A DNA stretch of 64,000 nucleotides, from positions 437,801 through 501,800 of the forward strand of contig LN554847.1 in assembly GCA_000953695.1 (NCBI GenBank), read 5' to 3'. Source of the stretch: Aliivibrio wodanis. Its GTDB lineage: Bacteria > Pseudomonadota > Gammaproteobacteria > Enterobacterales > Vibrionaceae. The notes beneath the pieces were generated by a model. That model saw nothing but the letters and a program-made list of their open reading frames with translations. It was not told the DNA's origin and did no database searches. Each line of letters opens with the position of its first letter. Position 1 is the first letter of the stretch. Position numbers and translations under genes: made by a program. This document shows positions 16,859 to 47,215 of this stretch, piece by piece.

Positions 16859-18730
16859 TTACTTCGTTTTATGTGACTTAAGTAGTGCCTCACCATTATA
16901 CATTGCTTCTTTAGTGCTGATATCTAGAGTACGTTTGCCTGCAAATCTAAGCGGTTCTTTTATTGCTACATCATGAGCAAAAATAACCAATTTAGCGTTT
17001 TTAATATCTAATGGGGTAATGCGGTTATTAATGCCATCTGCCCCTTGAGTTTCTACCTTTATTTTAATGCCTAATCGTTGTGCGGCTTTTTCTAAACTCT
17101 TGGCAGCAAGGAAGGTATGAGCAACTCCTGATGGGCAGGCTGTCACCGCTAATACATCCGCTTCGCCTTCATTTTTTACGGCAGTTAAGATCAGTTCACG
17201 GATCTCTTTATCCTCATCTTCTACGGCATTTTTCTTCAATGAAATAACAATGAGTGCCGTGGTTAATGCACCCAGCAGCGTACCAACCACATAACCAAAT
17301 TTCCCATCAACAACCGGTAATACAATCCAGCCACCCCATGGCGCATGATTTAATACGTTAAACAAAAATCCAGTTACGTTGCCAACAATACCACCGGCAA
17401 CAATGGCTGGGATAACACGAGCAGGATCGGCTGCAGCGAATGGAATTGCGCCCTCAGTAATGCCTATCATCCCCATAATGCCTGCCGCTTTGCCTGCTTC
17501 GCGTTCTTCTCGCTTGAATTTTTTAGGTGATAAGAAGGTCGCTAGCGCCATGCCTAATGGTGGAGTACAAATCGCAATGCCGACACCACCCATTAACCAA
17601 GGTTGCGTATTCACTTGAGTTTGAGCAAATAGGGTAGCGACTTTATTGATTGGGCCTCCCATATCAAAGGCCGCCATTGCACCAAGAATTGCGCCTAAAA
17701 CCACTTTTCCTGAACCTGCCATACTTGCAAGCCACTCATTTAGCAGCGTCATGGTATTAGCGATTGGTGCGCCAATTACCCACATGACAGCAGCGCAAGT
17801 GATGAAGGTACCGATAAGCGGATAGATAAAAATTGAGCCGAGGGAGGTCATGCTTTCTGGTAGCTTAATTTGCTTTAATGTACGAACGACAAACCCTGCA
17901 AAAAAACCAATGATGATAGCCCCTAAAAATCCAGTGTTGTACTGCTGAACAGCGATCCAAGAACCAATCATTCCCGGGGCTAATCCTGGTTTATCAGCAA
18001 TGGAATAAGCGATGTAGCCGCCAAGCACCACGGTAAATAAGGTTAATCCGGCAATGCCCATTTGTGCTATGTCAGCCAATATCCCTTCAGTTGGTACGGC
18101 GCCATGGCCTGAGATCATGACAGATAAAGAGAGCAAAACCCCACCGGCGACAATAAAGGGGATCATGTGTGAGGTGCCAAAGAGTAGGTGTTCTTTAGCG
18201 CGACCTAAACCACGAGAGAGTTCACTTTTTTCAGCTTGTGGTTCAGTTATGGTCGTTGAAGTCAGGGCTTCTTCTGGTTGAATTGAATCAGTAAATAAGG
18301 CTAAAGCTTCTTCTTTATTTTGTACGGTTTTTAATTTGTCGGTAAAGCCGTCTTCAATTAATCGAATGGATATTTGTGATAATGCTTCGATGTGTTGATT
18401 GTCGTCACCATCTGTTGATGCAAGCATAAAAAAGACATCAGATGGAAGACCATCCTCAGCACCATAATCAATACCTGTGCGGCTAATACCAATAGCGACA
18501 GAGGGCGTAATGACAGCGGTACTTTTGGCGTGAGGGATCGCAATACCGTCTTCAAAACCCGTATTCCCTATCTCTTCTCGCGCCCAAACATCAGAGAGAA
18601 ATTGTTGTTTATTCGATAGTTTTCCTGCATCGTTTAGTATATTAACCATCTCTTCAAGAATGCTTTCTTTAGACGTCGATTTGAGGTCTAAACAAATAAC
18701 ATTAGTATCAATAAGAGAGGTGATATTCAT
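16859..18730 (-). CDS. PTS fructose-family permease, EIIA-EIIC-EIIB fusion
   Basis: A three-domain phosphotransferase permease of about 623 residues that imports and phosphorylates a sugar at the inner membrane. Order: EIIA (1-145) with phospho-His about 67 in DGIAIPHAKS; EIIC (about 185-515) with FGTSHMIPFIVAGGVLL, FDMGGPINKVATLF and EGAIPFAAADP; and C-terminal EIIB with the active Cys in VTACPSGVAHTF. The A-C-B order differs from the A-B-C order of the second permease at 21416. I choose ATG 18730 (GGA six bases upstream, MNITSLID aligning with the paralogues) over 18766. The sugar is unknown; context suggests mannose or a related hexose. A shared 39-bp element lies upstream. Confidence 0.9.
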   Translation of the reverse strand: MNITSLIDTNVICLDLKSTSKESILEEMVNILNDAGKLSNKQQFLSDVWAREEIGNTGFEDGIAIPHAKSTAVITPSVAIGISRTGIDYGAEDGLPSDVFFMLASTDGDDNQHIEALSQISIRLIEDGFTDKLKTVQNKEEALALFTDSIQPEEALTSTTITEPQAEKSELSRGLGRAKEHLLFGTSHMIPFIVAGGVLLSLSVMISGHGAVPTEGILADIAQMGIAGLTLFTVVLGGYIAYSIADKPGLAPGMIGSWIAVQQYNTGFLGAIIIGFFAGFVVRTLKQIKLPESMTSLGSIFIYPLIGTFITCAAVMWVIGAPIANTMTLLNEWLASMAGSGKVVLGAILGAMAAFDMGGPINKVATLFAQTQVNTQPWLMGGVGIAICTPPLGMALATFLSPKKFKREEREAGKAAGIMGMIGITEGAIPFAAADPARVIPAIVAGGIVGNVTGFLFNVLNHAPWGGWIVLPVVDGKFGYVVGTLLGALTTALIVISLKKNAVEDEDKEIRELILTAVKNEGEADVLAVTACPSGVAHTFLAAKSLEKAAQRLGIKIKVETQGADGINNRITPLDIKNAKLVIFAHDVAIKEPLRFAGKRTLDISTKEAMYNGEALLKSHKTK

Positions 18731-18806
18731 AACGATTCCATTTTCTATCGGTAATTTGTTAGTCATGTTAGTGGATCTTTGAGTTTTAATAACTGGATAA
18801 AAAAGA

Positions 18807-18845
18807 CATTTACTGGATTATTGTACCCTCTGTGGCAAAGTGTGA
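18807..18845 (-). promoter_or_regulatory. 39-bp PTS-locus operator, copy 1
   Basis: On the plus strand it starts CATTTACTGGATTATTGTAC and ends CAAAGTGTGA. It matches copies at 23399-23437 and 24753-24791 without gaps, mainly in CATTTACTGGA, TTGTA, CC and AAGTGTGA. It lies 77 bases upstream of the EIIACB start and in the gap shared with the divergent EIIB gene. The TGTGA end could be half of a CRP site. Probable target of the AraC regulator at 23607. Confidence 0.75.
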
Positions 18846-18977
18846 GTTTGCTCCTTATTAATTGATGCTAAAGCACTTTATGATAAATGAGAGAGAAATA
18901 GCCAGTGTATTATTATTCAAATTAGTATCTTGTGAATACATTGAGTTATTTGAATTTTTACCAGTTAAGAGTAAATC

Positions 18978-19277
18978 ATGAAAATTGTGGCAGTAACAGC
19001 GTGTCCAACCGGAATTGCACACACTTACATGGCAGCAGATGTGCTTAAAAAGGCGGCTGCGAAATTGGGAGTGTCAATCAAAGTGGAAACTCAAGGCGCA
19101 ATGGGTGTTGAAGAAGTTCTCACATCTGTTGATATTGTGAATGCAGATCTTGTTATCATCGCATCGGATATCGAAATTGAAAATAAAAGTCGTTTTTTAG
19201 GCATTAATACTAAGCAATACAGTATTGAATCCATACTGACTGATGTAGACACTATTTTGAGAAAACACCTTTCATAA
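18978..19277 (+). CDS. PTS fructose-type EIIB, stand-alone
   Basis: A 99-residue free EIIB domain. The phospho-cysteine is Cys9 in VTACPTGIAHTYMAAD, followed by IKVETQGAMG, the usual fructose EIIB landmarks. It accepts phosphate from an EIIA and passes it to sugar bound by an EIIC. No EIIC is encoded with it, so it may serve a neighbouring permease or act in regulation. Its stop overlaps the start of the next gene (TAATG). It is divergent from the EIIACB permease gene, sharing a 247-base gap that holds operator copy 1. Confidence 0.9.
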   Translation: MKIVAVTACPTGIAHTYMAADVLKKAAAKLGVSIKVETQGAMGVEEVLTSVDIVNADLVIIASDIEIENKSRFLGINTKQYSIESILTDVDTILRKHLS

Positions 19278-20062
19278 TGGTATCGACAATTATCGATTAT
19301 CGCATTACCTTCTTTGTAAAAGAGCAAGGCTTGCCACCTCAAGTGGCGAGTCAGCTCACTCGACTTGCTAAAAAGTTTAAGAGCCTTGTTTATATTGATA
19401 ATATTACTCAAAACCTCAGTAGTGATGCAGCAAGTCCGCTCGGTTTACTAAAAGTAGGATTGAGGCCGGGAGATTTTTGTCAATTGGTGACCGTAGGAAT
19501 GGATGCGGAGTGGGCTAACTTTGTTCTGACTGACTTACTTGCTTCCACCTTTGATTTTGTTGCTTCGGATAAACTGTGTGATTTCTCAGAAACTATTGTT
19601 AATACCCGTCCGCAATTAACCCCTAACTGCGAAGTTGATTTTCATTACGTTAAAGCGCAAGCCGTCTTATCTAAATTCGAGATTTTAAAAGGCTTGTCAC
19701 AGCTGATTTACCCACAAGAGTCTGATGAATTGTTGTTGTCTTTGATAAAGCGAGAAGAACGCTCATCAACGGCAATGGCAAAACAAATCGCTTTACCTCA
19801 TGTTATTTCTCCTTATGTTGAGAAGCCGACCATAGCGATCATTCGTAGTGATTATTCGGTGGATTGGGCATCAAAAATGGGGGAGGTAAACTTGATTATT
19901 GCCTTAGTTCTGCCTGAGAAACCAAGTAAACCTATGATACTCGCTGCGACTTATTTAACTCGTAATATGTTGTCTGAGGAGTTTAGCCAACGTTTGGTAA
20001 ATACGAGACAACCAAAAGGGTTGCAGGCGTTGATTTTATACGCCATGTGTCAGTTGTTATAA
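19277..20062 (+). CDS. Degenerate HPr domain fused to fructose-type EIIA
   Basis: A 261-residue two-domain protein. Residues about 6-92 align with HPr: YRITFFVKEQGLPPQVASQL, then SPLGLLKVGLRPGDFCQL and a final MDAEWANFVLTDLLAS helix. The HPr active-site His in LHxRPA is replaced (LPPQVA, His to Pro and Arg to Gln), so this half should not carry phosphate. Residues about 120-261 are a fructose/mannitol-type EIIA with a phospho-His at about 175 in KQIALPHVIS. FruB proteins have the opposite order (EIIA first). It is translationally coupled to the EIIB gene. It may act as an accessory phosphodonor or a regulator; function not established from sequence. Confidence 0.75.
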   Translation: MVSTIIDYRITFFVKEQGLPPQVASQLTRLAKKFKSLVYIDNITQNLSSDAASPLGLLKVGLRPGDFCQLVTVGMDAEWANFVLTDLLASTFDFVASDKLCDFSETIVNTRPQLTPNCEVDFHYVKAQAVLSKFEILKGLSQLIYPQESDELLLSLIKREERSSTAMAKQIALPHVISPYVEKPTIAIIRSDYSVDWASKMGEVNLIIALVLPEKPSKPMILAATYLTRNMLSEEFSQRLVNTRQPKGLQALILYAMCQLL

Positions 20063-20069
20063 TTAAAAA

Positions 20070-20097
20070 GCTGACTCAACAACAAGGCTAAGTCAGC
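20070..20097. terminator. Hairpin between convergent EIIA fusion and manA
   Basis: 7-bp stem GCTGACT / AGTCAGC (20070-20076 with 20091-20097) in the 60-base gap between converging genes; A and T runs flank it, so it may work in both directions. Confidence 0.6.
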
Positions 20098-20122
20098 GTA
20101 TTTCTATCTTTATATCTAAGCG

Positions 20123-21322
20123 TTAGTTATACGCTCTTGCCACTTTCCCACTTGATTTTAGTGTGTATTGGTGTGCGTAAGCTGGAACAAAAATAGAATG
20201 CCCTTTAGGTACATTGACCGTTTCACCTGTTGAGTGATGCAATGTCATGTCACCATCAATCGCAAATAAAATCTCGGCACTGTGCGTTTCTAGTGGTAGA
20301 TCATCAACTGATGCAAATACTGAGAATTTAAAATCGCTCACAGGGATAGGGTAATTCATCCCTCCATTAATAATGTTAGGTTGCATAATCAATGATTCAG
20401 TAGAAATACTAACAAACTCTGTGCAATCCATAAGCTCATCAATATCCATGAATTTTGGGGTTAACCCTGCGCGCAGTACATTGTCTGAATTTGCCATTAT
20501 CTCTAGTCCAGTGCCATTAATGTAAGCATGAGGCGTACAAGCGTTTAAGTACATGGCTTCACCCGGTTGCAGAGTAATGACATTAAGTATTAATGGAGTA
20601 AATAAACCAATGTCATTTGGGTACTGAGTTGATAAATCATCAATTAAAGCAAATAGAGCATTTTGTTTATTATTGTTGGCGAAGTGACCTAGATCGGTTA
20701 ATGCCGACTCTTTTGCATTATCAGTTAATGAAAGAATATCTTTAAAGAAGCATTTTAACCCTTGTGAGTTTGGCTGTTGTTCAAAACTTGTGATGATTTC
20801 TTCAAGAGAAGGCAGCGCCATTTGGTTAAATAGGGCAATGATCTCGTTATATTCTCTAAAACCATTCATCGCTTTGTAAGGTGTTAACGCGTATACCAAT
20901 TCTGGTTTGTGGTTATTGTCTTTATAGTTACGATTAAATGCATTCAGCTCTATTCCTGATTGCTCTTCTTTATCGTAGCCTGCCATCGCTTGTTGTTTAT
21001 TAGGATGAACCTGAATAGAGAGTGCTTTTTCTGCTGCTAATACTTTGAATAAATATGGTAATTCACCAAAGTGATCTGCCGTTAACGAAGATAAATAGGC
21101 GGTTTGATCTTGATTGATTAGCTCAGATAATAAGGTTGGTTGGCCATTCATAGTAACGGTAGAACAACCATTTGGGTGAGCGCCCATCCATAATTCTGCT
21201 TGTGGCTTATTGCTGGTGTTTTTTATATCAAATAAGGCTTCGATAGAGGTGAAGCTTCCCCATGCATAATCTTGAATTACATTGGTCATAGGGTAAAAGA
21301 ATTGTTGAGTTGATTTATTCAT
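20123..21322 (-). CDS. manA: Mannose-6-phosphate isomerase, class I
   Basis: ManA converts mannose-6-phosphate to fructose-6-phosphate and needs zinc; it is cytoplasmic. The 399-residue length is normal. Zinc-ligand and signature regions are LSIQVHPNKQQA near residue 99, the HKPELVYAL segment near residue 137, and the class I signature NACTPHAYINGTGLEIMANSDN-VLRAGLTPKF around residues 263-293 (quoted in parts). It is downstream of the EIIABC permease gene on the same strand with a 93-base gap, so the permease is likely to make mannose-6-phosphate or a convertible sugar phosphate. Confidence 0.95.
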   Translation of the reverse strand: MNKSTQQFFYPMTNVIQDYAWGSFTSIEALFDIKNTSNKPQAELWMGAHPNGCSTVTMNGQPTLLSELINQDQTAYLSSLTADHFGELPYLFKVLAAEKALSIQVHPNKQQAMAGYDKEEQSGIELNAFNRNYKDNNHKPELVYALTPYKAMNGFREYNEIIALFNQMALPSLEEIITSFEQQPNSQGLKCFFKDILSLTDNAKESALTDLGHFANNNKQNALFALIDDLSTQYPNDIGLFTPLILNVITLQPGEAMYLNACTPHAYINGTGLEIMANSDNVLRAGLTPKFMDIDELMDCTEFVSISTESLIMQPNIINGGMNYPIPVSDFKFSVFASVDDLPLETHSAEILFAIDGDMTLHHSTGETVNVPKGHSIFVPAYAHQYTLKSSGKVARAYN

Positions 21323-21350
21323 AATGCACTCGATGTCATCAATGGAAAGC

Positions 21351-21407
21351 TTCTCCAGTGCGTTTCAAATCTTGTTTTACTGAATCAAGAGAGAAAACAC
21401 TGGAGAA
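21351..21407 (-). other. Intercistronic hairpin between EIIABC gene and manA
   Basis: Perfect 10-bp stem TTCTCCAGTG / CACTGGAGAA (21351-21360 with 21398-21407) with a 37-base loop and no T-tract. It may stabilise or attenuate the polycistronic message. Confidence 0.5.
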
Positions 21408-21415
21408 AGAGAAGG

Positions 21416-23317
21416 TTAAGCTGCCGCTACAGAAAATGATTTCGCTTGGCGAGCTTTTTTAATAGAAACACAAACCAATGCGGTTACGGTTGCGCCCGCT
21501 GCCATGCAAGCCAGTGCTAATACCGGTTTATTCATTGCACCAAGTAGAGCAACAACAGGACCACCGTGAGCAACGCTGTTTGTTATGCCAAATGAGAACG
21601 CCATTACTGCGGCAACCATAGAACCAAGGATATTGGCAGGGATAACTGAGATAGGATCTTGCGCTGCAAATGGAATGGCACCTTCAGAGATTCCCACCAG
21701 ACCCATGGCACCAGAGGCTTTACCTGCTTCAATTTCAGACTCTTCAAAGATATTGAATTTGCGACCAATAACCGTTGCTAATGACATACCTAGTGGAGCG
21801 ACAGGAATTGCACACGCCATCGCGCCCATGAATTGAGTTTGACCACTCGCAATCATGCCGACAGAGAATAGGAAGGCGACTTTATTGAATGGACCACCCA
21901 TATCAAAGCCAGCCATGCCACCTAGAACGATACCAAGTAGAACAACGTTACCTGTGCTCATGTTGGTTAGTAGTACGTTTAGTGAATCCATCAAATCAGC
22001 AATCGGCGCACCAATAACAAAAATGAATAATGAAGCGATGAATAGTGAACCTGTAATAGGTGCAATAACGATAGGCACAAGAGGTTGAATGAACTTGTGG
22101 TAGTTGATGTTAACGATGAATTTAACAAAATAGCCCACTAGCAGACCGGCGATAATGGCACCGATAAAACCAGTACCTGCATCAGCACCATAAAATGAGC
22201 CGTTATTGGCAATCCAACCACCAATAAGGCCAGGAGTTAACGCTGGACGATCAGCAATCGCATAAGCAATGTAACCCGCAAGAATTGGGATCATTAAGGT
22301 AAAAGCGACAACACCAACATCGAGCACTTTGTTCCATAAACTACCTGGAGGAATAGCCATACCGCTTTCAGTTGGTTGACCACCCAGAGCAAGTGCCAGT
22401 GCGATTAATAAACCGCCAGTGACAACAAATGGGATCATGTGTGATACGCCATTCATTAGGTAACGATAAATATCTGAGCGGGTTTGAGACGAACTGCCTT
22501 TGTTATCTGAGCTTGATTTAGTTGTATCAGCAACAAAAGGAGGTTGTGTAAGAGATTGAGTAATTAAGCCTTTTGCATCTTTAATCGGTGCTTTAACGTT
22601 GGTTTGAATCAGCTTTTTACCTGCGAAGCGAGTCAGATCTACTTGTTTGTCACATGCGACGATAATCGCTTCTGCTTTTTCAATTTCTTCTGCGGTAGGG
22701 CTGTTTTTAACGCCAATAGAGCCGTTAGTTTCTACCTTGATGGTGTAGCCTAATTCTGCCGCGCCTTTTTCTAGTGCTTCAGAAGCTAAGTAGGTGTGGG
22801 CAATACCTGCAGGGCAACCAGTGACACCAATTAAAAAGCCATTAGTTGCTTCAACTGCGTTGGTGTTTTCTGTTTTTTCAAGTAGTAGCGCTAACGCCAT
22901 TTTTGGTGATGTTGCGGCTAAGAATTTTTCAATAAATCCATCTTCAATGAGTTTACAAGACAGTTCAGCCAGTACTTCAATGTGATGATCTGCACCGTTT
23001 TCAGGGGAGGCAATCATAAAGAATAATTTAGATGGTAGCCCATCTTCAGCGCCATATTCGATACCTTGCTTGCTGATACCAATCATGACTGCAGGGGAGA
23101 TAACCGCCGAGCTTTTCGCATGTGGTAGTGCGACGCCTTCTTCAAAGCCTGTATTTCCTAATTCTTCTCTTGCGTAGATATCATTAAGAAATACCTGTTT
23201 GTCATTGATTCGACCTTGTTGCAGAAGATGTTCTGCCATTTCAGAAAAAACGTCGTCTTTGGTTTTTGCTGCAAGATCTAAGCAAATTAGCTGTTCGTTG
23301 ATTAAGTCAGTAATCAT
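21416..23317 (-). CDS. PTS fructose/mannose-family permease, EIIA-EIIB-EIIC fusion
   Basis: A 633-residue PTS permease. Order: EIIA with phospho-His 66 in GVALPHAKSS; EIIB (about 160-260) with Cys168 in IGVTGCPAGIAHTYLAS; a linker; EIIC (about 290-620) with MNGVSHMIPFVVTGGLL, GFDMGGPFNKVAFLF and EGAIPFAAQDP. The A-B-C order is that of MngA/HrsA and of the vibrio mannose permease group. ManA lies directly downstream on the same strand, so mannose is the best guess for substrate; fructose or a mannoside is possible. The ATG follows GGGAATAACTT. Operator copy 2 lies 82 bases upstream. Confidence 0.9.
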   Translation of the reverse strand: MITDLINEQLICLDLAAKTKDDVFSEMAEHLLQQGRINDKQVFLNDIYAREELGNTGFEEGVALPHAKSSAVISPAVMIGISKQGIEYGAEDGLPSKLFFMIASPENGADHHIEVLAELSCKLIEDGFIEKFLAATSPKMALALLLEKTENTNAVEATNGFLIGVTGCPAGIAHTYLASEALEKGAAELGYTIKVETNGSIGVKNSPTAEEIEKAEAIIVACDKQVDLTRFAGKKLIQTNVKAPIKDAKGLITQSLTQPPFVADTTKSSSDNKGSSSQTRSDIYRYLMNGVSHMIPFVVTGGLLIALALALGGQPTESGMAIPPGSLWNKVLDVGVVAFTLMIPILAGYIAYAIADRPALTPGLIGGWIANNGSFYGADAGTGFIGAIIAGLLVGYFVKFIVNINYHKFIQPLVPIVIAPITGSLFIASLFIFVIGAPIADLMDSLNVLLTNMSTGNVVLLGIVLGGMAGFDMGGPFNKVAFLFSVGMIASGQTQFMGAMACAIPVAPLGMSLATVIGRKFNIFEESEIEAGKASGAMGLVGISEGAIPFAAQDPISVIPANILGSMVAAVMAFSFGITNSVAHGGPVVALLGAMNKPVLALACMAAGATVTALVCVSIKKARQAKSFSVAAA

Positions 23318-23398
23318 AAGTTATTCCCATTTGGGTGGATGTCTTGTGTGGGAATAGTGTGATTCTGATGAGATAGATTGGTAAGTGTGCGAGAAATG

Positions 23399-23437
23399 CA
23401 TTTACTGGATTTTTGTATCCTCTAAAGCCAAGTGTGA
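23399..23437 (-). promoter_or_regulatory. 39-bp PTS-locus operator, copy 2
   Basis: Starts CATTTACTGGATTTTTGTAT and ends CCAAGTGTGA on the plus strand; aligns gap-free with copies 1 and 3. It lies between the EIIABC gene and the divergent AraC-family gene. The bases 23433-23448 read TGTGATTCAGCTCTGA, close to the CRP pattern TGTGA-N6-TCACA. Confidence 0.77.
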
Positions 23438-23606
23438 TTCAGCTCTGATTTTTATAAATCCAAAAAGCTATAATGCACAAGTCAAAAAAGTACTTAATAA
23501 ATAATGACTTACATTGTTGTTTTTATGTAATTATTGATGGGTTATTTATCAATAACGTCCTGATTTTGATGGGGTTGGTGGATAAAAGTGTGGTTAATTT
23601 TAGTAA

Positions 23607-24473
23607 GTGATGAGCATGGGTTTAGTATTTAATACTGTTTTAGAGGCGCTACTGTCAGAAAGAGAAAGCTTTAATCAGATCTGGTTTGCAGGCGATAAAG
23701 TGACGCCTCCCTCATGTTGTTACCAAGTTAACTTTCCCCGTTTAGAGCTAGTGATTAGCGGTGAGTACCTAAATCAGATCGAAGATCCAGACATTGGGAT
23801 TACTGAAGTTAAAATCATGGCGGGAGACGCGCTCTATATCCCACCAAACTGCTGGAATAAACCTAATTGGAGTGAGGATTGTTCTGTACTGAGCTTACTT
23901 TTTGGTCGCAGACAAGTGGGGTTCAGTTTAGTGAGTAAGCGTAAGGGCGAAGAGGGTTTCTATGATGTGCAAAAGTACAGTATTCAAACTCGAACTGGCC
24001 ATGCGATTGATAACATTTTAGAAGCGCTAAATGCTCTCGCTCGTGAACCTAATAAAAACCAGATTGATGAGTATCTACTTTTGGCATTGTTGAGTTATAG
24101 CAAAACAATGTTAGGGGAGCCAAATGATGTCATCTCTCCTAAAAAGCGCAGTGAAGATCTTTATCAAGGGATATGCATTTATATCCAAGAAAACTTCCAT
24201 CGTAGTATTGATAGAAATAATATCGCTAGTCGTTTTAATATTTCGCCAAACCATTTGTCTCGTATGTTTAGGCAGCAAGGGCATATGACGCTAGCAGATT
24301 ATATTACTTGGGTGCGTATTGAACGTGCCAAATTTATGTTGAAGAAATATACCTTCCGTTTAACTGAAGTCGCTACGCGTTGTGGTTTTCAAGACGTGAA
24401 TTATTTTTATCGAGTATTTAAAAAGAAGACCAGTTATACCCCATCAGACTATCGAACTATGGTTAAAATATAG
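23607..24473 (+). CDS. AraC-family regulator of the PTS locus
   Basis: A regulator of about 288 residues. Residues about 1-160 form a cupin-like AraC N-terminal domain (GDALYIPPNCWNKPNW). The C-terminal 100 residues hold two helix-turn-helix motifs: NIASRFNISPNHLSRMFRQQ and LTEVATRCGFQDVNYFYRVF, with the family ending KKTSYTPSDYR. AraC-type activators bind asymmetric sites upstream of promoters. It is divergent from the EIIABC-manA unit and central to the PTS cluster, so the three 39-bp elements are its likely targets. A similar arrangement (AraC regulator beside a mannose-type EIIABC and manA) occurs in Vibrio cholerae. GTG 23607, ATG 23610 and ATG 23616 are all possible starts. Confidence 0.88.
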   Translation: MMSMGLVFNTVLEALLSERESFNQIWFAGDKVTPPSCCYQVNFPRLELVISGEYLNQIEDPDIGITEVKIMAGDALYIPPNCWNKPNWSEDCSVLSLLFGRRQVGFSLVSKRKGEEGFYDVQKYSIQTRTGHAIDNILEALNALAREPNKNQIDEYLLLALLSYSKTMLGEPNDVISPKKRSEDLYQGICIYIQENFHRSIDRNNIASRFNISPNHLSRMFRQQGHMTLADYITWVRIERAKFMLKKYTFRLTEVATRCGFQDVNYFYRVFKKKTSYTPSDYRTMVKI

Positions 24474-24752
24474 TTTTTATTAATTACTATATAATAAAGC
24501 TAAATGAAAACCCTATCGTAAAGATCATATTCAGTATTTTTTCTAAATAACCATGTTGAATGACACATATTTAACGTGGTTTCCCCCTCTTATTGTTAAA
24601 AATTTCTCCACCATATTTTTGTGATCTATCACTCTTAAAGTCAGTCTTTTATTGGTTTTAACTTTAAGTTGTTGTTATTAATCGCTTTGTGATTTGTTTT
24701 TCTATGTGTTCTATCCTTTCTATCTTTTTTTAACACATAATTGTTACTGTCA

Positions 24753-24791
24753 TCACACTTTGATTTTGCGGGTACAAAAGTCCAGTAAATG
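24753..24791 (+). promoter_or_regulatory. 39-bp PTS-locus operator, copy 3
   Basis: Plus strand starts TCACACTTTGATTTTGCGGG and ends TCCAGTAAATG; its reverse complement aligns gap-free with copies 1 and 2. It is 102 bases upstream of the EIIA gene and in the same orientation relative to its gene as the other two. It is the only feature I can support in the 24474-24892 gap, which is otherwise AT-rich and non-coding. Confidence 0.77.
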
Positions 24792-24892
24792 CTTTAAATA
24801 TCAACTTACCAAATGCCACTTTAATTCATATTATTCCCTCATCAACTTAATGCAGTTTGAATTAAGTAAAAATTCTTATTAAGGGAAATACC

Positions 24893-25324
24893 ATGATCAC
24901 TACATTAGTAAATACCAACTTAATTAAATTGAACTTAGAAGCGACAACGAAAGATGGCGTATTTTCTGAGTTAGCTGAAATGTTATTAAAAAATAACCGT
25001 ATCGATAATAAAGAAAACTTTTTAGCGGGTATTTATGAGCGTGAAGCGCAGTGTGTGACTTCTGATATGGGAATTGCTTACCCTCATACAAAAAATGCCG
25101 CGGTTATTGAACCAGCTATTGCGATTGGCGTATCAAAAACGGCGATTGAATACGGTGCTGATGATGACCAACCAACCGTATTTTTTATGATTGCCTCACC
25201 AGAAAGCGGCGATCACCACATTTATGCACTACAAGCGTTATTTGAAAAATTCGGTGATGATCTAATTGCAGATATGCAAAAAGCGACGACCGAGCAAGAC
25301 ATTTTAGATTTACTGATTAATTAA
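24893..25324 (+). CDS. PTS fructose-type EIIA, stand-alone
   Basis: A 143-residue free EIIA domain. The N-terminus (MITTLVNTNLIKLNLEATTK) is clearly paralogous to those of the two large permeases, and the phospho-His is His65 in GIAYPHTKNA. It would take phosphate from HPr (or from a diphosphoryl carrier) and give it to an EIIB, most likely the C-terminal EIIB of the EIICB permease encoded next. The ATG follows AAGGGAAATACC. The two genes are separated by a palindromic repeat of about 160 bases. Confidence 0.92.
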   Translation: MITTLVNTNLIKLNLEATTKDGVFSELAEMLLKNNRIDNKENFLAGIYEREAQCVTSDMGIAYPHTKNAAVIEPAIAIGVSKTAIEYGADDDQPTVFFMIASPESGDHHIYALQALFEKFGDDLIADMQKATTEQDILDLLIN

Positions 25325-25486
25325 TACCAATCGTAGTAAATAACTGGTCATCCTAGCTGGTTAAAAGACTTGATAACTGCGTTAGAATTTTTGATTGTAG
25401 AATAACTACTTATCGAAAAATTCTGCCTTGTTTTCAAGCCTTTTTCCTTCGCTATTTCTGAACACTTACTTACTGTGATTGGCATA
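25325..25486. repeat. Palindromic MITE-like repeat
   Basis: The ends are imperfect inverted repeats: AATACCAATCGTAGTAA at the left and TTACTGTGATTGGCATA at the right. Inside, AGAATTTTT and AAAAATTCT form a second pair. The sequence TACCAATC...CATCCTAGCTGGTTAAA...ATTCTGCCTTGTTTT has the look of the abundant vibrio palindromic elements. It carries no gene. It sits within an operon between EIIA and EIICB genes and could act as an mRNA hairpin. Confidence 0.65.
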
Positions 25487-25519
25487 ACTTTTAGTTTTAC
25501 TCACTTTAGGATTACTTTT

Positions 25520-26920
25520 ATGTCAACGATGACTGCAACAACTCAACCATCTGGTGATTGGAAACAAACACTATCCAAATTAAAAGGACACTTGCTTTTT
25601 GGTACATCTCACATGCTTCCGTTCGTGGTTGCAGGTGGGGTACTTTTAGCTCTAGCAGTAATGGCTACGGGTAAAGGTGCAGTTCCTGATACGGGTATTC
25701 TAGCGGATATTTCAACTATCGCGATTAAAGGTCTTGTACTTTTCCCAATCATTCTTGGTGGCTTTATTGGTTATTCTATTGCGGATAAACCAGCATTAGC
25801 GCCTGCATTTATTGCATCAGGTATTATGGCTGATTTAGGTGGTGGCTTCCTTGGTTGTATCGTTGCTGGTTTCATTGCTGGCGGTGTGGTTCTTCAACTT
25901 AAGAGATTGCCTATCCCAGCACATTTAAGCGCACTAGGCGTTTACTTTATTTATCCTCTTGTTGGTACGCTAGTTTCTGCTGGTATCGTAATGTGGGGCT
26001 TAGGTGCAGCTATCTCTTCTTTCATGATTGCGATGAATGAATTCCTAGCGTCAATGGCGGGTTCTTCTAAAGCGGTTCTAGGTGCGATTCTTGGTGGTAT
26101 GACGGCGTTTGATATGGGTGGCCCAATCAACAAAGTAGCAACACTATTCGCTCAAACACAAGTAAATACACAACCATGGCTAATGGGTGGCGTTGGTATC
26201 GCGATTTGTACTCCACCACTAGGTATGGCACTTGCAACATTCATGTTTAAGAAGAAATTCTCTAAAGAAGAGCAAGAAGCAGGTAAAGCAGCGGCAATCA
26301 TGGGTTCAATTGGTATCTCTGAAGGGGCTATCCCGTTCGCAGCAAATGACCCAATGCGTGTTCTTCCATCTATCGTAATTGGCGGCATGGTTGGTTGTGT
26401 GTTTGGCTTCATGACTGATGTATTACTTCATGCACCTTGGGGCGGTTTAATTACAGCACCTGTCTCTAGCAACATCCCAATGTATGTTGTAGGTATTGCA
26501 CTAGGTTCATTAACAACAGCGCTAATTGTTGGCTTCTGGAAACCAGTAGTTGTAGAAGATGAAACAGCAGTAGCAACACCAGTACAAGCTCAAGCGGCAC
26601 CAGTTGCTGGCGAAGGTGAGTATGATGTTCTAGCGGTTACATGTTGTCCTTCAGGTGTAGCACACACGTTCATGGCAGCAAAAGCACTAGAGAAAGCAGC
26701 CGCAGCAGCAGGCATCAAGATTAAAGTTGAGACTCAAGGTTCTAACGGCTTAGTGAACAAACTGACAGCAAAAGACGTAGCGAACGCTAAGTTCATTATC
26801 CTTGCTCATGATATTCCAGTAAAAGAATCAGATCGTTTTGCTAACATTCGTCAAGTTGAATGTTCAACCAAAGGCGCAATGAAAACGGCATTATCATTGA
26901 TTCAAGACAATATAAAATAA
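25520..26920 (+). CDS. PTS fructose-family permease, EIIC-EIIB fusion
   Basis: A 466-residue permease with EIIC first (about 20-345: LLFGTSHMLPFVVAGGVLL, FDMGGPINKVATLFAQTQVN, EGAIPFAANDP) and EIIB last (active Cys about 376 in VTCCPSGVAHTF). It is closely similar to the EIIC and EIIB parts of the permease at 16859, including the shared segment GPINKVATLFAQTQVN, so the two arose by duplication. It lacks its own EIIA and probably uses the one encoded at 24893. The ATG at 25520 follows AGGATTACTTTT; the upstream in-frame GTG lies in the repeat and is not used. Confidence 0.92.
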   Translation: MSTMTATTQPSGDWKQTLSKLKGHLLFGTSHMLPFVVAGGVLLALAVMATGKGAVPDTGILADISTIAIKGLVLFPIILGGFIGYSIADKPALAPAFIASGIMADLGGGFLGCIVAGFIAGGVVLQLKRLPIPAHLSALGVYFIYPLVGTLVSAGIVMWGLGAAISSFMIAMNEFLASMAGSSKAVLGAILGGMTAFDMGGPINKVATLFAQTQVNTQPWLMGGVGIAICTPPLGMALATFMFKKKFSKEEQEAGKAAAIMGSIGISEGAIPFAANDPMRVLPSIVIGGMVGCVFGFMTDVLLHAPWGGLITAPVSSNIPMYVVGIALGSLTTALIVGFWKPVVVEDETAVATPVQAQAAPVAGEGEYDVLAVTCCPSGVAHTFMAAKALEKAAAAAGIKIKVETQGSNGLVNKLTAKDVANAKFIILAHDIPVKESDRFANIRQVECSTKGAMKTALSLIQDNIK

Positions 26921-26925
26921 TACAT

Positions 26926-26956
26926 AAAGCGCGGTGTAATTACATCGCGCTTTTTA
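26926..26956 (+). terminator. Rho-independent terminator between EIICB and GH92 genes
   Basis: Stem AAAGCGCG / CGCGCTTT (26926-26933 with 26946-26953), extended by a weaker inner stem, then TTTTT. It may only partly separate the permease and mannosidase transcripts, because the GH92 start follows within 25 bases. Confidence 0.8.
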
Positions 26957-26976
26957 TTAAAATTAAGGATGAATTC

Positions 26977-28271
26977 ATGAAACTTTTTAAACCAACAATG
27001 ATTGCTTTTTCCATTGCGATAACACTTTCAGGTTGTAACGACGAAACCATTAATAACTATTACCCTGAAACTCCAGGGGTTGAAGTTCCTGATGTGGAGC
27101 ACCCTCAAGATGGTGCTGATATTGTCGTTGACCAATCACTACTGAAGTTTGTAAATCCAATGATTGGTACCGCAGCAAGTGGCCATACTTTTGCTGGTGC
27201 GGTGGTTCCTTCTGGTATGGTTCAATTATCACCAGATACGTTTAAAGGCACAAACCAAGATACAGAAGCGGGACAAAACCCATGGCATTCCGCTTCTGGT
27301 TATTGGGATGCAAGTGACTATGAAAAAGGTGATATTTTTGATACCGATTTAAATATCTACGGTTTCTCGCATACCCATTTATCAGGAACAGGAGCGACAG
27401 ATTTAGGAGATATTCTCGTTCTGCCTTATTCAAATGATGCAGACAGTGAAAATAATACCTTTGATAAGAAAAATGAACAAGCTACAGCAGGTTATTACTC
27501 AGTCACATTGAATGAAGGTGCAATTAAAGCCGAGCTAACAGCAACAACGCGAGTGGGCATCCATCGTTATACTTTTGCGGAAGGTGCAGACCGTAAAGTT
27601 AAGATTGACCTTGCTCATACATTGGCGGCTAATAACGGTGAATCATTACAAAACCGTGTCGAGTTAGTTGATGAGTATACGCTTCGTGGTCGTCGCAAAT
27701 CAACGGGTTGGTTCCAAGGGCAAGAAATTTTCTTTTACGCTAAGTTTAGTCAGCCTGTGACTAGTGCCATGATTGCTCGTGATGGTGGTTCTGCTGCTTC
27801 AATGCAAATGGGTGCGGTATATGGATCTATTAATGTGCCGAATAAAGAGCAAATTACCTACCTAGATTTTGGTAAAGGCGAAACACCAATTGAAATGCGA
27901 GTTGGCTTGTCACCTGTGAGTTGGGAAGGAGCAGAAAAGAACTTAAAAGCTGAGGCTCCAACGTATGACTTTGAAAAAGTAAAATCTAACGCTGAACAAT
28001 TATGGGCGAAAGAGCTATCTACTATCAAAGTTGAAGGTGGTACAGACGATGAAAAAACTATTTTCTATACAGGGATTTATCACGCACTAATTGCCCCTGC
28101 TGAGTTTCAAGATGTTGATGGCACATACCGTGATATGTTAGGAGTAGAGCGTAAAGCTGATAACACGAAGAACTTCTCAATTTATTCAACGTGGGATAGC
28201 TTCCGTGCAGTTCACCCTTTGTTAACGATTATCAAGCCTCAACGTGCAACAGATTATGCGAATGCTAGATC
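26977..28271 (+). pseudogene. GH92 alpha-mannosidase lipoprotein, 5' part (interrupted by IS)
   Basis: The first 431 codons of a glycoside hydrolase family 92 exo-alpha-mannosidase, a calcium-dependent inverting enzyme that trims mannose from N-glycans or mannans outside the cytoplasm. A lipoprotein signal is clear (lipobox LSGC, Cys20). Landmarks: VNPMIGTAASGHTFAGAVVPSGMVQLSPDT (quoted in part: PMIGTAASGHTF), YGFSHTHLSGTGATDLGD near residue 128, and IYSTWDSFRAVHPLL near residue 405. An IS30-family element cuts the frame after base 28271. Removing the IS and one 4-bp duplication restores a single frame of 814 residues, a normal GH92 length. The ATG follows AAGGATGAATTC. Confidence 0.9.
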
Positions 28272-29221
28272 GTAACAATAACCGACACACGCTTACCGCT
28301 TAAAAACTCACTCGGACTCAGAAAATTTAATGCCTTTCTAGGTCTCGAATTAATCAAAAACTCTGCCTGTTTAACCTCTTTTGCAGCAAGTTCTCCAATG
28401 GCCATTCCCTTTGGGAAAAAACGCCTTAGTAAACCATTGGTATTTTCATTCAAACCTCGTTGCCAGGAATGGTAAGGTTTAGCAAAATAAATGTCACAGT
28501 TCAGATGCTTAGCTATCTTAGCATGACCCGCAAACTCTCCGCCATTATCAAATGTGATTGTTTTGCAAAGTTCTTTAAAGGGCTTCATCATGCGATTTAT
28601 CCCACGAGTGACTGCTTTTTTAGACTTGCTACGTACTTTGCAAGTAACTAATAGCTTAGATACTCGCTCTACCATAGTGACTAAATACCCATCTTGACCA
28701 TAAACAGTATCACCTTCCCAGTGGCCAATTTCTGAGTTATCGTCAACAATAGCAGGCCGGAGAGAGATATCAGCGCGGTTGGGAATTAGTCTTGCTCCAG
28801 CTTCTACACCTTTACGCTGTTTGTATTTTTTACCTTTTCGAGCAAGCATTCTTTGCCAATGCTCTCTTTTAACTACATTGTAAATAGTACTGCAACATAT
28901 TGTATTTTCTATTTTTTCTTTATGCATTCGTCCAGATATTTGCTCTGGGCTCCAACCAAGTTGTAGGTATATTTGAATTATTTTCTTATTCTTTTGGCCA
29001 CACTTTGTGTGCTTAATTGAAAGTGTTCTTTTTTGAAAAGCATGTTTATGCGCTTGCTCGGCAGAATAACTTCCAACAGGACAGCGTCGTAATTCCCTTG
29101 AAATGGAGCCATTGCTCCGTTTTAATTTTTGTCCTATTTCCCGAGCAGAAATACTATGTGTATTCCAAGCTTCAATCTGGTATCTTTCACTTAGTGTCAG
29201 TTGCTTATATTGGTGTCCCAT
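28265..29221 (-). CDS. IS30-family transposase
   Basis: A 318-residue DDE transposase. The N-terminal helix-turn-helix has the IS30 signature LTLSERYQIEAW and SAREIGQKLKRSNGSISREL. The catalytic core shows IGHWEGDTVYG (first Asp), TITFDNGGEFAGH (second Asp) and LNENTNGLLRRFFPKG (Glu). Length is normal for the family, and the frame is intact, so it may be active. The stop codon TAG lies outside the element, in the GH92 target sequence: the last two codons of the frame run across the left IS end. Confidence 0.93.
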   Translation of the reverse strand: MGHQYKQLTLSERYQIEAWNTHSISAREIGQKLKRSNGSISRELRRCPVGSYSAEQAHKHAFQKRTLSIKHTKCGQKNKKIIQIYLQLGWSPEQISGRMHKEKIENTICCSTIYNVVKREHWQRMLARKGKKYKQRKGVEAGARLIPNRADISLRPAIVDDNSEIGHWEGDTVYGQDGYLVTMVERVSKLLVTCKVRSKSKKAVTRGINRMMKPFKELCKTITFDNGGEFAGHAKIAKHLNCDIYFAKPYHSWQRGLNENTNGLLRRFFPKGMAIGELAAKEVKQAEFLINSRPRKALNFLSPSEFLSGKRVSVIVTI

Positions 29222-29309
29222 GTGGTTACCTTAGTTGATTGTGTGAGAGCTTGAAGCTTATAGGCAACTGACTCTCTAATCTATACCAAAGTGTGTCGGT
29301 TATTCTTGG
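28272..29309 (-). mobile_element. IS30-family insertion sequence
   Basis: A 1038-base element with inverted ends (left GTAACAATAACCGACACAC; right, read inward, CCAAGAATAACCGACACAC) and one DDE transposase gene on the minus strand. GATC occurs on both sides (28268-28271 and 29310-29313), the expected target duplication; the exact outer 2-3 bases are uncertain because the extreme ends do not match. It disrupts the GH92 gene. Confidence 0.87.
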
Positions 29310-30463
29310 GATCTAGGAATGACTTACTGCGTAAATCTGATGAGTTTGGTTTACTTCCAAAATGGGAGGGCGGAGGTAAAGAAACAGGTACAATGATTGG
29401 TTATCCATCGACAGCAATTGTTGGAGATGCGGTAGTTAAAGGGCTAGAAGTCGATGCTAAACATGCACTCGAAGCCGCGAAAAAATCAGCATATTATCGA
29501 CCTTATGACTTCCCTCAAATTCCAGACCATACTTTACAAGCGGTAATGGCAGGACAGCTGAGTTATCATGAAAAAGAGCAATGTGTGCGTTTCCCTAATT
29601 GGAATTCAGTTTCTTACTCGCTAGAATTTTCTTACTACGATTGGACGATTGGTGAAATCGCGAAAGTGGCAGGTGATATGGGGGCGTATGCTGAATTTAA
29701 CGAGCGTTCATATTATTCACTGAATCATTGGGATAAGGAAACTGGTTTCTTTGTACCAACAATTCAAGAAAACGGTGATAATTGTGCTCTAAAATATGCA
29801 GAAGGAGAGTTTGACCCGTATAAAGCAGATGCTTACTATTTCACAGAAGGTAATGCATGGCAGTGGCAATGGTCGTTTATGCAAGACATGGATAAACTCA
29901 CTGAAATTATGGGCGGCACGGCAGGACTTAATCAAAAGCTGAATAACCTATTTGCGGCTAACTCTAATGAAGGTGATCAACACCAAGATATGACTGGCTA
30001 CATTGGTCAGTATATTCATGGTAATGAGCCATCTCATCACGTTATTTACCTGTATAATCGTACTGAAGAGTCTTTTAAGGTACAAGAGTATTTAGATAAG
30101 GTATACAAAGAGTTCTATAAAAACCGTGCAGATGGCATCATAGGTAATGAAGATGTGGGGCAAATGTCGGCGTGGTATATCATGTCAGCAATGGGTTTTT
30201 ATCAAGTAACCCCGACAGATCCAACTTATACTATTGGTCGTCCAATCTTTGATAAAGTGGTGATGAACATTGGTAAAGGTGAGTTTACGGTAACGGCTGA
30301 AAATAATAGTTCAGAAAATATGTACGTTGAGTCAGTGACTATCAATGGAAAACCGTTAAATATGTTTAATACCTTTGAGCATGAAGAAATTAAAGCGAGT
30401 GGCAAATTACACTTTGTAATGACTGGTGATAAATCAAAAGCAATGAAAGCCAATATTAAATAA
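29310..30463 (+). pseudogene. GH92 alpha-mannosidase, 3' part (interrupted by IS)
   Basis: The last about 383 codons of the same GH92 gene, resuming in frame at RNDLLRKSDEFGLLPKWEGG. Landmarks: KETGTMIGYPSTAIVGDA, YYFTEGNAWQWQWSFMQD, GNEPSHHVIYLYN, and IGNEDVGQMSAWYIMSAMGF, which contains the Glu regarded as general acid in GH92 enzymes. No other frame damage is visible, so loss of function rests on the IS alone. This part has no start or signal peptide and should not give an exported enzyme. Confidence 0.9.
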
Positions 30464-31948: not shown

Positions 31949-32151
31949 ACAAATCTAACTCACTTTTGGTGTGTTGATTACGAGTGATATCAGAGCAACA
32001 AAGAGAGATCATATATAAGTTAAATTTATTACTGATTGTAATCAATATTGTCCTCTTACTTATTAATTTTATTGATTATTCCACATTTTTCGTTAGCTAC
32101 TTATGATAAAGTCGCCACGTAGTTCAGTTTATAGCTAGGTTGAGGGAAATC

Positions 32152-34599
32152 ATGTCATCGGGTTCAATAAATAAAAAAAATCTAACCGAAACAGACATCA
32201 TTACAAAATTCATCATGCCATCCATCAAAAGTGCTGGGTGGGATGACATGAGTCAGATACGTCAAGAAGTGGCCCTGCGAGATGGTAAAGTTATCGTTCG
32301 TGGTCAAGTGGGTATGCGTAAAACGGTAAAAAAAGCCGATATCGTGCTTTATCATAAACCAAGCATGCCGTTAGCCGTCGTAGAGGCAAAAGCCAATAAA
32401 CACCAAGTGGGTAAAGGAATTCAACAGGGGCTAGATTACGCTCGCTTATTGGATATACCGTTTATTTTCTCGTCTAATGGTGATGGTTATATTTTTCATG
32501 ATAAAACCAAACTGGGCACTTCTGAAGACAATCAGTTAGAAAGCCAAATTCGATTAGAAGATTTCCCAAGCCCAGATGAGTTATGGAAAAAATTCTGTAT
32601 CTGGAAAGGTTATACTGAAGCTCAACTGCCAATTATTACGCAAGATTATTATGATGATGGCAGTGGCAAATCTCCTCGTTACTATCAATTACAAGCTATT
32701 AATAAAACGGTAGAAGCCATTTCTGCTGGCAAAAATCGTGCGTTATTAGTGATGGCGACAGGTACGGGTAAAACGTATACCGCCTTTCAAATTATTTGGC
32801 GTTTATGGAAAGCAAAAGCGAAAAAGCGCATTCTTTTCTTGGCAGACCGAAACATATTAGTAGACCAAACTCGTCTTAATGATTTTCAACCTTTTGATAC
32901 GGCGATGACTAAGATTACTGGTCGAACGGTTGATCCCTCTTTTGAAATTCATTTGGCACTTTATCAAGCATTAACAGGGCCAGAAGAAAGTCAAAAAGCT
33001 TATAAACAAGTCGATCCTAACTTCTTTGATTTAATCATCATTGACGAATGTCACCGTGGTAGTGCAGCAGAAAACAGTGCATGGCGTGAAATTTTAGAAT
33101 ACTTTAAATCAGCAGCACAGGTTGGTTTAACCGCAACCCCTAAAGAAACCGATGAAGTCTCCAATTCCGATTACTTTGGAGATCCAGTCTATACCTACTC
33201 ATTAAAAGAGGGGATAGAAGATGGATTTTTAGCGCCGTACAAAGTTGTTCGTGTAGATTTAGACGTTGATTTACAGGGTTGGCGACCAACCAAAGACCAA
33301 ACGGATAATAACGGTGAGTTGATTCAAGACCGTATTTATAACCAAAAAGATTTTGATCGCACAATGGTGATTGATGAGCGCACCGAGCTTGTCGCTAAAA
33401 CCATTACAGACTATTTAAAGCGTACAGACCCAATGTCGAAAACCATCGTGTTTTGTAACGATATTGACCATGCAGAGCGTATGCGTAGAGCCATTGCCAA
33501 CCTTAATCCTGAGCAAATGGCAAAAAATGACAAATATGTAATGAAGATCACGGGGGATGATGAGCTAGGAAAAGGGCAGCTAGATAACTTTATTAACCCT
33601 AAAAAAGCCTACCCAGTGATAGCGACAACCTCAGAGTTAATGACAACAGGCGTTGATGCGAAGACCTGTAAATTGGTTGTGCTTGATCAAAACATTAAAT
33701 CCATGACCAAGTTTAAGCAAATTATTGGTCGTGGAACTCGTATTGATGACCGCTACGGTAAGCTGTGGTTCACCATTCTTGATTTTAAAAAAGCGACAGA
33801 GTTATTTGCAGATGAACGCTTTGATGGAACTCCTGAGAAGGTGATTAAAACCACGCCTGAAATCATTGAAGATGAAACCGTTGATTTAGAAGAAATGGAA
33901 ACAGAAGCAAGCACGGAAGAATCAGGTGAGATTTCTGGTGCTGAATCAGAAGAACAAACGGGTGAGATAAATGATCCAACAGGCATTTATGAGCCAAAAG
34001 GCGATGGTGAGTGGGAAGACGAAACACCAAAAATGGTGAAGTACCACGTATCTGGTGTGAGTGTCAGTAAGATTGCAGAGCGTGTTCAATATTATGATAG
34101 TGACGGTAAATTAGTCACAGAATCATTCAAAGATTACACTCGTAAAACCATGCATAAGCAATTTAGTTCATTAGATGCGTTTGTAAAACGTTGGAATGAG
34201 GCCGACCGTAAAGAAGCGGTGATTAAAGAGCTAGAATTAGCGGGTATTATTTGGTCTGCGCTAGAAGATGAAGTAGGCAAAGAGATGGACCCGTTTGATC
34301 TTATTTGCCATGTGGTTTACGACCAGCCACCACTTACACGTAAAGAACGTGTTGAGAATGTAAAGAAGCGCAATTACTTCACTAAATACTCAGAGACTGC
34401 ACAACAAGTATTAGGCAATTTATTAGTTAAATATGCCGATGAAGGCGTACAAGAAATTGAAAATATCCAAGTGCTTAAAGTAAAACCATTTGATGAAATG
34501 GGTAGACCTCTTGAGATCATCAAAAAAGGATTTGGTGATAAAAATGGTTACTTACAAGCGGTAAGTGAATTAGAACAAGAGATTTACCAATCCGCCTAA
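32152..34599 (+). CDS. hsdR: Type I restriction enzyme, R subunit
   Basis: The 815-residue motor and nuclease subunit of a type I restriction-modification system. Order: N-terminal PD-(D/E)xK nuclease ([11 protein letters not shown]; catalytic EAK about residue 79), SF2 helicase with Walker A ATGTGKT (about 202) and DECH box in [11 protein letters not shown] (about 298), motif [12 protein letters not shown], motif [11 protein letters not shown], a very acidic linker (about 575-625), and a C-terminal assembly domain. Length and layout resemble type IB enzymes such as EcoAI/EcoEI. I choose ATG 32152 (GAGGG six bases upstream) over TTG 32140. First gene of the outer-island cargo. Confidence 0.93.
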
Positions 34600-34667
34600 T
34601 CTAACTCGCAATATTAGAGCCTGTGGTTGACTAGAGCGTTATTTTCTATAATACTAAACCCAATAGT

Positions 34668-34724
34668 GCCCAGTCCCCTGTCTTTGAAGTTACTTAAGAA
34701 ATAACTTTGGAGTCAAGGCTGGGC
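34668..34724. other. Possible hairpin between hsdR and the Abi gene
   Basis: GCCCAG (34668-34673) pairs with CTGGGC (34719-34724), with partial inner pairing around TTACTTAAGAAATAA. It may end or slow the hsdR transcript. No T-tract. Confidence 0.35.
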
Positions 34725-34775
34725 GTTCTCGTTTATGGACACTAAGAAATGTAAGCCTAGGAACTAAGGATGGTT

Positions 34776-35768: not shown

Positions 35769-35858
35769 ATTCCCTTAAAAAGACAGATGCGACTAATTCT
35801 AACTGCTGAATTGCGTTATAATCTTCTACAATTTTCAGTTAGTTATAAGTAGAAAACT

Positions 35859-46969: not shown

Positions 46970-47215
46970 TGATATACTCACTCAGAAGAGATAAAAAAAT
47001 ATAAGTCACTATAAATCATGCACTTATAAAATACTACAACTAGTAAGGATTTATGTCAGTCATCAACAAATTTTCTTGTGAAAAATGACACTGTCAAATC
47101 ATATTATAATTAAAATATGATTTGACAACTTGGTTGGTCAAAAACGCATGAACAGAATGTGTTCTAATTTTATACTAACAAAGAATAACGTAAAAGCGAG
47201 CTAGAAAATGCCACC

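Follow-up and report, generated by a model that had tools for sequence, protein, structure and literature searches.

The window analysed here, a 64,000-nucleotide stretch of the Aliivibrio wodanis genome (assembly GCA_000953695.1, contig LN554847.1, positions 437,801 to 501,800), carries manA, manP and manR together with several fructose-family phosphotransferase system (PTS) parts, which make up the VC1820-VC1827 set of Vibrio cholerae in a changed gene order. Among these genes lie three copies of a 39-bp element, at 18807-18845 (+), 23399-23437 (+) and 24753-24791 (-), which a first-pass annotation had read as the operator of a PTS regulon under joint control of an AraC-family protein and the cyclic AMP (cAMP) receptor protein CRP.

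Three copies of a probable composite operator

The three elements align without gaps over all 39 bases, as that annotation had claimed; all three agree in 29 of 39 columns, and the pairwise identities are 33/39, 31/39 and 33/39. Each has the same orientation relative to its PTS gene, and the proposed upstream distances of 77-102 bases are recovered: 82 bases for copy 2, 102 for copy 3, and 77 for copy 1 if an internal methionine is the start of the IIABC gene (40-41 from the first ATG). The AraC-family gene said to lie between the elements is manR, located between copies 2 and 3. Many unrelated genomic copies, which the annotation had named as evidence against an operator, are not seen: in the 4.64-Mb, six-contig genome the pattern TTTACTGGANTNTTGTANCC has exactly three matches without mismatch, namely the three elements, none with one mismatch, and one with two, inside an open reading frame (ORF) that we take to be lptD-like. 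The pattern TCACA-N15-TACA-N4-TCCAGT likewise has three perfect matches, all in the window, none at one mismatch and six at two, and its backwards-read control has none in this genome at up to one mismatch; at up to three mismatches the search is at chance level, with 82 places against 76 for the control.

The anatomy of the site was read from 150 distinct sites found with a 22-bp core matrix, counting identical stretches once and leaving out sites too near a locus end. We read the 39 bp as part of a composite of ~66 bp, in which a CRP-like site (GA-N6-TCACA) is followed after 15 bp by a putative ManR half-site 1 (TACAA-N3-TCCAGT) and, exactly 20 bp on, by a weaker half-site 2. The three gap-free copies of the first-pass annotation thus stand, but the element is longer than it had proposed, and the second half-site had been missed. 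TCACA occupies a single fixed place in 143 of the 150 sites, TCCAG is present in 130 and GA-N6-TCACA in 118; the GA-N6-TCACA spacing is that of the CRP consensus, and the earlier annotation, too, had noted that the TGTGA end extends to a CRP-like pattern. At exactly +20 bp a second TCCAGTA-like box has a mean match of 4.61 of 7, against 1.77 ± 0.41 at other offsets, and this half-site shows most clearly where some species have an additional site proximal to manR (TCCAG at +20 in 15 of 25).

The +20 box recurs in further sites. Twenty regions were chosen by eye, mostly away from manP, among the listed composite-site matches, and contain 29 sites with up to one mismatch; setting aside those of loci L137, L144, L145 and L152 leaves 25. 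Among these are a pair in L138, where a PTS IIABC gene and a transposase gene adjoin them, one in a predicted 178-amino-acid (aa) ORF (L134), two in an 81-aa ORF (L142) and one in an 80-aa ORF (L147). The mean match of the +20 box is 4.52, against 1.80 ± 0.41 elsewhere, with TCC in 16 of the 25 and in at most 3 at other offsets. On the promoter side, a -10-like hexamer recurs at one fixed forward place (index 124), the top offset in the single-manP, far-manP, BS2 and IIA_20 sets. With a start 7 bases after this hexamer, half-site 2 adjoins the -35 region and the CRP site falls near -92.

The published core, AATCC, occurs in window copies 1 and 2 and is missing from copy 3 (GTCCAG). Neither AATCC nor GGATT is found in the manR-manP gap of V. 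mimicus, which we take to be a close relative of V. cholerae, though its manP site does score and, by eye, another match to the composite pattern can be made out there. Because AATCC is missing from both copy 3 and this gap, we do not regard it as the operator core. We considered an additional BS1-like site serving manR within the window, with AATCC at ~23458, and rejected it: its letters vary among Aliivibrio, and the matrix gives one site in the gap.

Conservation and known relatives of the regulon

The promoter survey covered 91 sequences, comprising the best 80 of 201 named loci, 10 further loci (L041-L048, L050 and L051, partly repeating named ones) and the window; 88 of them contain a manP match. 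Genes whose match began after residue 40 or had coverage under 30%, or whose region was under 200 bases, were not scored. The conservation at orthologous loci that the first-pass annotation had proposed to check is seen: of the scorable promoters, 88 of 88 for manP, 28 of 29 for IIABC_22 and 19 of 22 for IIA_20 carry a site, always in one orientation. No site above score 9 was found before manA (74 promoters), IIBC_21 (22) or the HPr-EIIA gene (85), and we rejected these as separate targets, a result that is as expected for genes inside operons. Across 1.78 Mb, the core matrix at a score of at least 13 gives 172 matches, against 13 with the reversed matrix; a query gene starts within 450 bases of 155 of them, and exact TCACA at its fixed place is seen in none of the other 17.

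Occurrence of the operator also follows that of manR. ManR relatives (E ≤ 1e-40) are encoded in 204 of 296 Vibrionaceae genomes, and at least one composite site (up to one mismatch; genomes read off by eye) is present in 199 of these 204, the five without being G014, G041, G067, G092 and G185, compared with 18 of the 92 genomes that lack manR. The backwards control at the same stringency is found in 45 of 204 and 19 of 92 genomes respectively, and the 18 of 92 is therefore chance level.

In V. cholerae, VC1825 (ManR) is reported to bind mannose-6-phosphate, through which mannose induces, and to activate manP-manA and itself, binding the manR-manP gap at two sites and also the VC1820 promoter and the gap between VC1822 and VC1823, as judged from electrophoretic mobility shift assays, footprinting, lacZ fusions and RNA sequencing (PMC9392796). 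In the same account CRP-cAMP shifts manR-manP DNA in the mobility shift assay, and part of the layout described here may already appear in its Fig. 4c, where sites for ManR and CRP are marked (PMC9392796). The PTS regulon proposed for the window is therefore supported, and had already been published in 2022 for V. cholerae. The two systems have the same regulator, PTS genes and manA; in the window, too, a ManR relative is encoded beside manP-manA, and one site each is found in the manR-manP gap, where V. cholerae has its CRP site, before IIA-IIBC, and between IIABC and IIB. They differ in the number of ManR sites in the manR-manP gap, two in V. cholerae and one in the window, in that the VC1820-21 pair adjoins manR in the window and is followed by a broken GH92 gene, and in the absence of the published AATCC from copy 3. 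We regard the finding, from the DNA, as the Aliivibrio version of the published regulon, with an operator that is better defined here. Among the titles and abstract openings surveyed, only PMC9392796 treats ManR in Vibrio, and none was found on a composite operator or on mannosidases under ManR.

Chromatin immunoprecipitation sequencing (ChIP-seq) of V. cholerae CRP lists the site CGAGATCTAAATCACA between VC1825 and VC1826 (PMC6050953). This site and the V. mimicus manP element have GATCTAAATCACA in common, V. mimicus (L110) standing in here for V. cholerae DNA. A search of 100 genomes related to that of V. mimicus for the letters of the ChIP-seq site gave two matches, in G148 and in G342, a genome of another family.

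The layout of the operator resembles, by analogy, the plan of E. coli araBAD, in which the regulator gene is divergent, the stronger half-site is the one further from the promoter and the half-sites are 21 bp apart. AraC-family activators are also paired with CRP at sugar-uptake genes in the E. coli RhaS/RhaR and MelR promoters, a likeness of description and not of DNA sequence: ManR matches the AraC, RhaR, RhaS and MelR models far under their curated cut-offs. At araBAD an AraC-type protein occupies two half-sites, araI1 and araI2, with a CRP site upstream (PMC4760080). As there, the putative ManR half-sites are direct repeats about two helical turns apart, the nearer one beside the -35 region in the family average. 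Their spacing of 20 bp instead of 21, their recognition sequence and the possibility that the CRP site serves a divergent promoter at class-II distance set the ManR operator apart.

The 20 regions chosen by eye, which are examples and no census, place the operator beside genes other than those of the core locus. GH92 alpha-mannosidase genes adjoin sites in L143, L148, L149 and L150, GH2 beta-mannosidase-like genes in L133, L135, L139 and L140 (with a partial one in L142), SBP_bac_5 transporter genes in L136 and L151, EI-HPr-EIIA fusions in L134, L141, L146 and L147 (some behind a small ORF), and PTS IIC or IIB genes in L133, L135, L140, L142, L146 and L147. In L144 (G057, of the window's genus) an unbroken IIA-IIBC-GH92 series follows the site, the order also found in the window, with GH92 there interrupted by an element that is presumably IS30-like, judging from its pairing of rve and HTH_38 domains. 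Some operators of this wider set may answer to ManR paralogues. Where a species encodes several ManR-like proteins (Photobacterium), it is possible, although in our view rather unlikely, that its additional operators next to mannosidase and PTS genes are the targets of a paralogue of the same binding preference instead of ManR. Several genomes of one genus (g8, taken as Photobacterium) have two or three ManR-like genes, and at one of the additional loci two sites flank a separate AraC-family gene (L133:7355-8194), but G057 and G044, both of the window's genus and with one ManR-like gene each, still have extra sites, before GH92 (L143) and before SBP_bac_5 (L151) respectively. As separate observations, unbroken GH92 genes are present in other genomes of the genus (L143, L144), and in L138 a DDE transposase gene is flanked by two near-identical operators 1.75 kb apart (6782 and 8532), all ahead of a PTS IIABC gene, an arrangement that looks like a promoter duplicated around an insertion.

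Probable joint control by ManR and CRP, and a possible two-way use

The composition, spacing and conservation of the operator and its co-occurrence with manR can all be counted directly in the genomes, and we put at roughly 0.8 the probability that each element is a composite control site for ManR, an AraC-family mannose-6-phosphate sensor, and cAMP-CRP. Joint control, as proposed by the first-pass annotation, remains the best reading in view of the V. cholerae binding data, the orientation of the sites, their conservation and their co-occurrence with manR; the small effect of CRP on V. cholerae manP qualifies it. That CRP is the reader of TCACA would follow from the consensus and the V. cholerae data, and the binding of a ManR dimer to two half-sites, the start sites, the class-II placement and the function in A. 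wodanis are predictions from the letters. Read towards the PTS gene, the operator would present a CRP site ~92 bp upstream of the likely start, then the strong ManR half-site, and, exactly 20 bp beyond it and beside the -35 region, the weaker half-site 2. Mannose entering as mannose-6-phosphate would bring a ManR dimer onto both half-sites and RNA polymerase would be recruited, with CRP assisting at high cAMP.

Several observations are less easily reconciled with this scheme. Half-site 2 is clear at copy 1 of the window and weak at copies 2 and 3, and among the 16 distinct sites of the IIA_20 set the +20 offset ranks only fourth (3.25, the best being 4.19 at +43). The forward -10 place ranks third in the IIABC_22 set and outside the top four in the manR-proximal (BS1) set, and the forward -10 of copy 2 is poor (CACTAT, 3/6). 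The left half of the CRP-like site is degenerate, with TGTTA at copy 3; 32 of the 150 sites lack GA-N6-TCACA, and the GA is present in only 12 of the 25 further sites. Counted from the published V. cholerae manP start, AATCC stands at -61 to -65, and the operator geometry gives -58 to -62. In V. cholerae, manP rose only slightly when a crr mutant was given cAMP, and ManR is called the major regulator (PMC9392796). The role of CRP at manP is the weakest functional link, and CRP may matter little there.

The small cAMP effect, the fixed distance from TCACA to TCCAG in 143 of 150 sites and the restriction of strong conservation to the right half of the CRP-like site, with 13 of the 25 further sites lacking GA in the left, could all be accommodated if ManR alone read the whole element and TCACA were a third ManR contact. 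We consider this improbable, since 118 of 150 sites carry GA-N6-TCACA with the consensus spacing of CRP, since CRP-cAMP shifts the V. cholerae manR-manP DNA and the ChIP-seq site there resembles the V. mimicus element, and since the divergent -10 boxes of Aliivibrio stand at class-II distance from the TCACA site. That the copies are instead a dispersed repeat, a transposon end or chance matches has virtually no likelihood and was rejected: near-identical copies do lie within 6 kb with a transposase gene nearby, but there are exactly three in the genome, their orientation is fixed and their distance to PTS genes at orthologous loci is in promoter range, they track with manR, and by eye they are unlike the ends of the insertion sequence (IS) element in the GH92 gene.

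Under joint control by ManR and CRP, copies 1 and 2 may each act on a pair of promoters: in Aliivibrio the same CRP site would lie at class-II distance (~-40 to -43) from a divergent -10, that of IIB or manR. Exact TATAAT at the manR spot and TATNAT at the IIB spot are each found in nine of nine Aliivibrio sequences, against a background of 6.8% for at least 5/6 letters and 0.7% for an exact box. At IIA sites, which have no divergent query gene, a divergent -10 (at least 5/6) is seen in none of four Aliivibrio and none of 12 other cases. Outside Aliivibrio it is present at 7 of 19 IIABC sites, and in the BS1 set the averaged reverse profile is best at index 4, with weaker letters. By operator geometry, the published V. 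cholerae manR start (AATCC at -72 to -76) places CRP at ~-42.

The counterweights are that the box appears at only 7 of 98 manP-side sites outside Aliivibrio, which equals background, and that the averaged reverse profile of IIA_20 is best at index 7, near the class-II place, even though no single site reaches 5/6. Because the nine Aliivibrio sequences are close relatives, two-way use of copies 1 and 2 is suggestive only, and so far confined to that genus. A broader proposal is that the ~66-bp cassette acts as a two-way switch, with ManR-dependent PTS supply in the forward direction and class-II CRP drive of the regulator or IIB in the other, hunger priming the sensor before mannose arrives, and that, with the cassette also lying ahead of alpha- and beta-mannosidase and transporter genes in Vibrionaceae, ManR is a master of mannose-glycan foraging and not of one PTS. 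We hold this tentatively, and would sooner expect it to fail than to stand, its weight being lowered because the backward box is not general outside Aliivibrio. The operator offers a clear test of one CRP site serving two divergent promoters.

Genes of the locus and neighbouring features

Table 1. Positions of operators, candidate promoter boxes and genes in the window
Feature	Position	Strand	Remarks
Composite operator 1 (copy 1 extended)	18791..18856	-	CRP-like site 18841-18856; putative ManR half-site 1 18807-18828, half-site 2 18791-18797 (TCCAGTT); reads towards IIABC gene
Composite operator 2 (copy 2 extended), upstream of manP	23383..23448	-	CRP-like site 23433-23448; putative half-site 1 23399-23420, half-site 2 23383-23389 (weak)
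Composite operator 3 (copy 3 extended), upstream of IIA-IIBC genes	24742..24807	+	CRP-like site 24742-24757 (left half TGTTA); putative half-site 1 24770-24791 (GTCCAG, no AATCC), half-site 2 24801-24807 (weak)
Candidate forward -10 of copy 3, TATTAT	24829-24834		
Candidate -10 of divergent manR promoter, TATAAT	23469..23474	+	CRP centre ~-41
Candidate -10 of divergent IIB promoter, TATGAT	18879..18884	+	CRP centre ~-42
manR, AraC-family regulator, 288 aa	23607..24473	+	Pfam HTH_18 and HTH_AraC
manP, PTS EIIA-IIB-IIC, VC1826 counterpart	21416..23317	-	Pfam domains
manA, mannose-6-phosphate isomerase	20123..21322	-	Pfam domains
PTS EIIA-IIC-IIB	16859..18766	-	VC1822 counterpart by order and domains
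PTS EIIB	18978..19277	+	VC1823 counterpart by order and domains
PTS HPr-like plus EIIA protein	19277..20062	+	VC1824 counterpart by order
PTS EIIA, VC1820 counterpart	24893..25324	+	
PTS EIIC-IIB, VC1821/fdgA counterpart	25475..26920	+	EIIC match under Pfam's curated cut-off
GH92 alpha-mannosidase gene, interrupted by IS element	26860..30463	+	Pfam GH92 on both sides of insertion
Transposase ORF inside GH92 gene	28265-29221	-	rve and HTH_38 domains

By ManR identity the closest named relatives of the window are from Aliivibrio (L053-L060, 90-99%), and in a sequence search of PDB only the DNA-binding half of ManR was matched (AraC 2k9s, SoxS, MarA and others). The protein that joins an HPr-like half to an EIIA half is ~46-50% identical to matches behind Vibrio IIABC/IIB loci, where the neighbouring IIB is at ~58-66%. 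The element inside the GH92 gene is bounded by 26-bp inverted repeats at 28265-28290 and 29291-29316, with 3 of 26 positions mismatched. Close behind the mannose locus, positions 32140-39049 carry an Abi_2 gene flanked by genes for Type I restriction R and S proteins, a possible defence island, and a 1370-aa protein with a KAP-family P-loop NTPase domain is encoded at 42869-46981.

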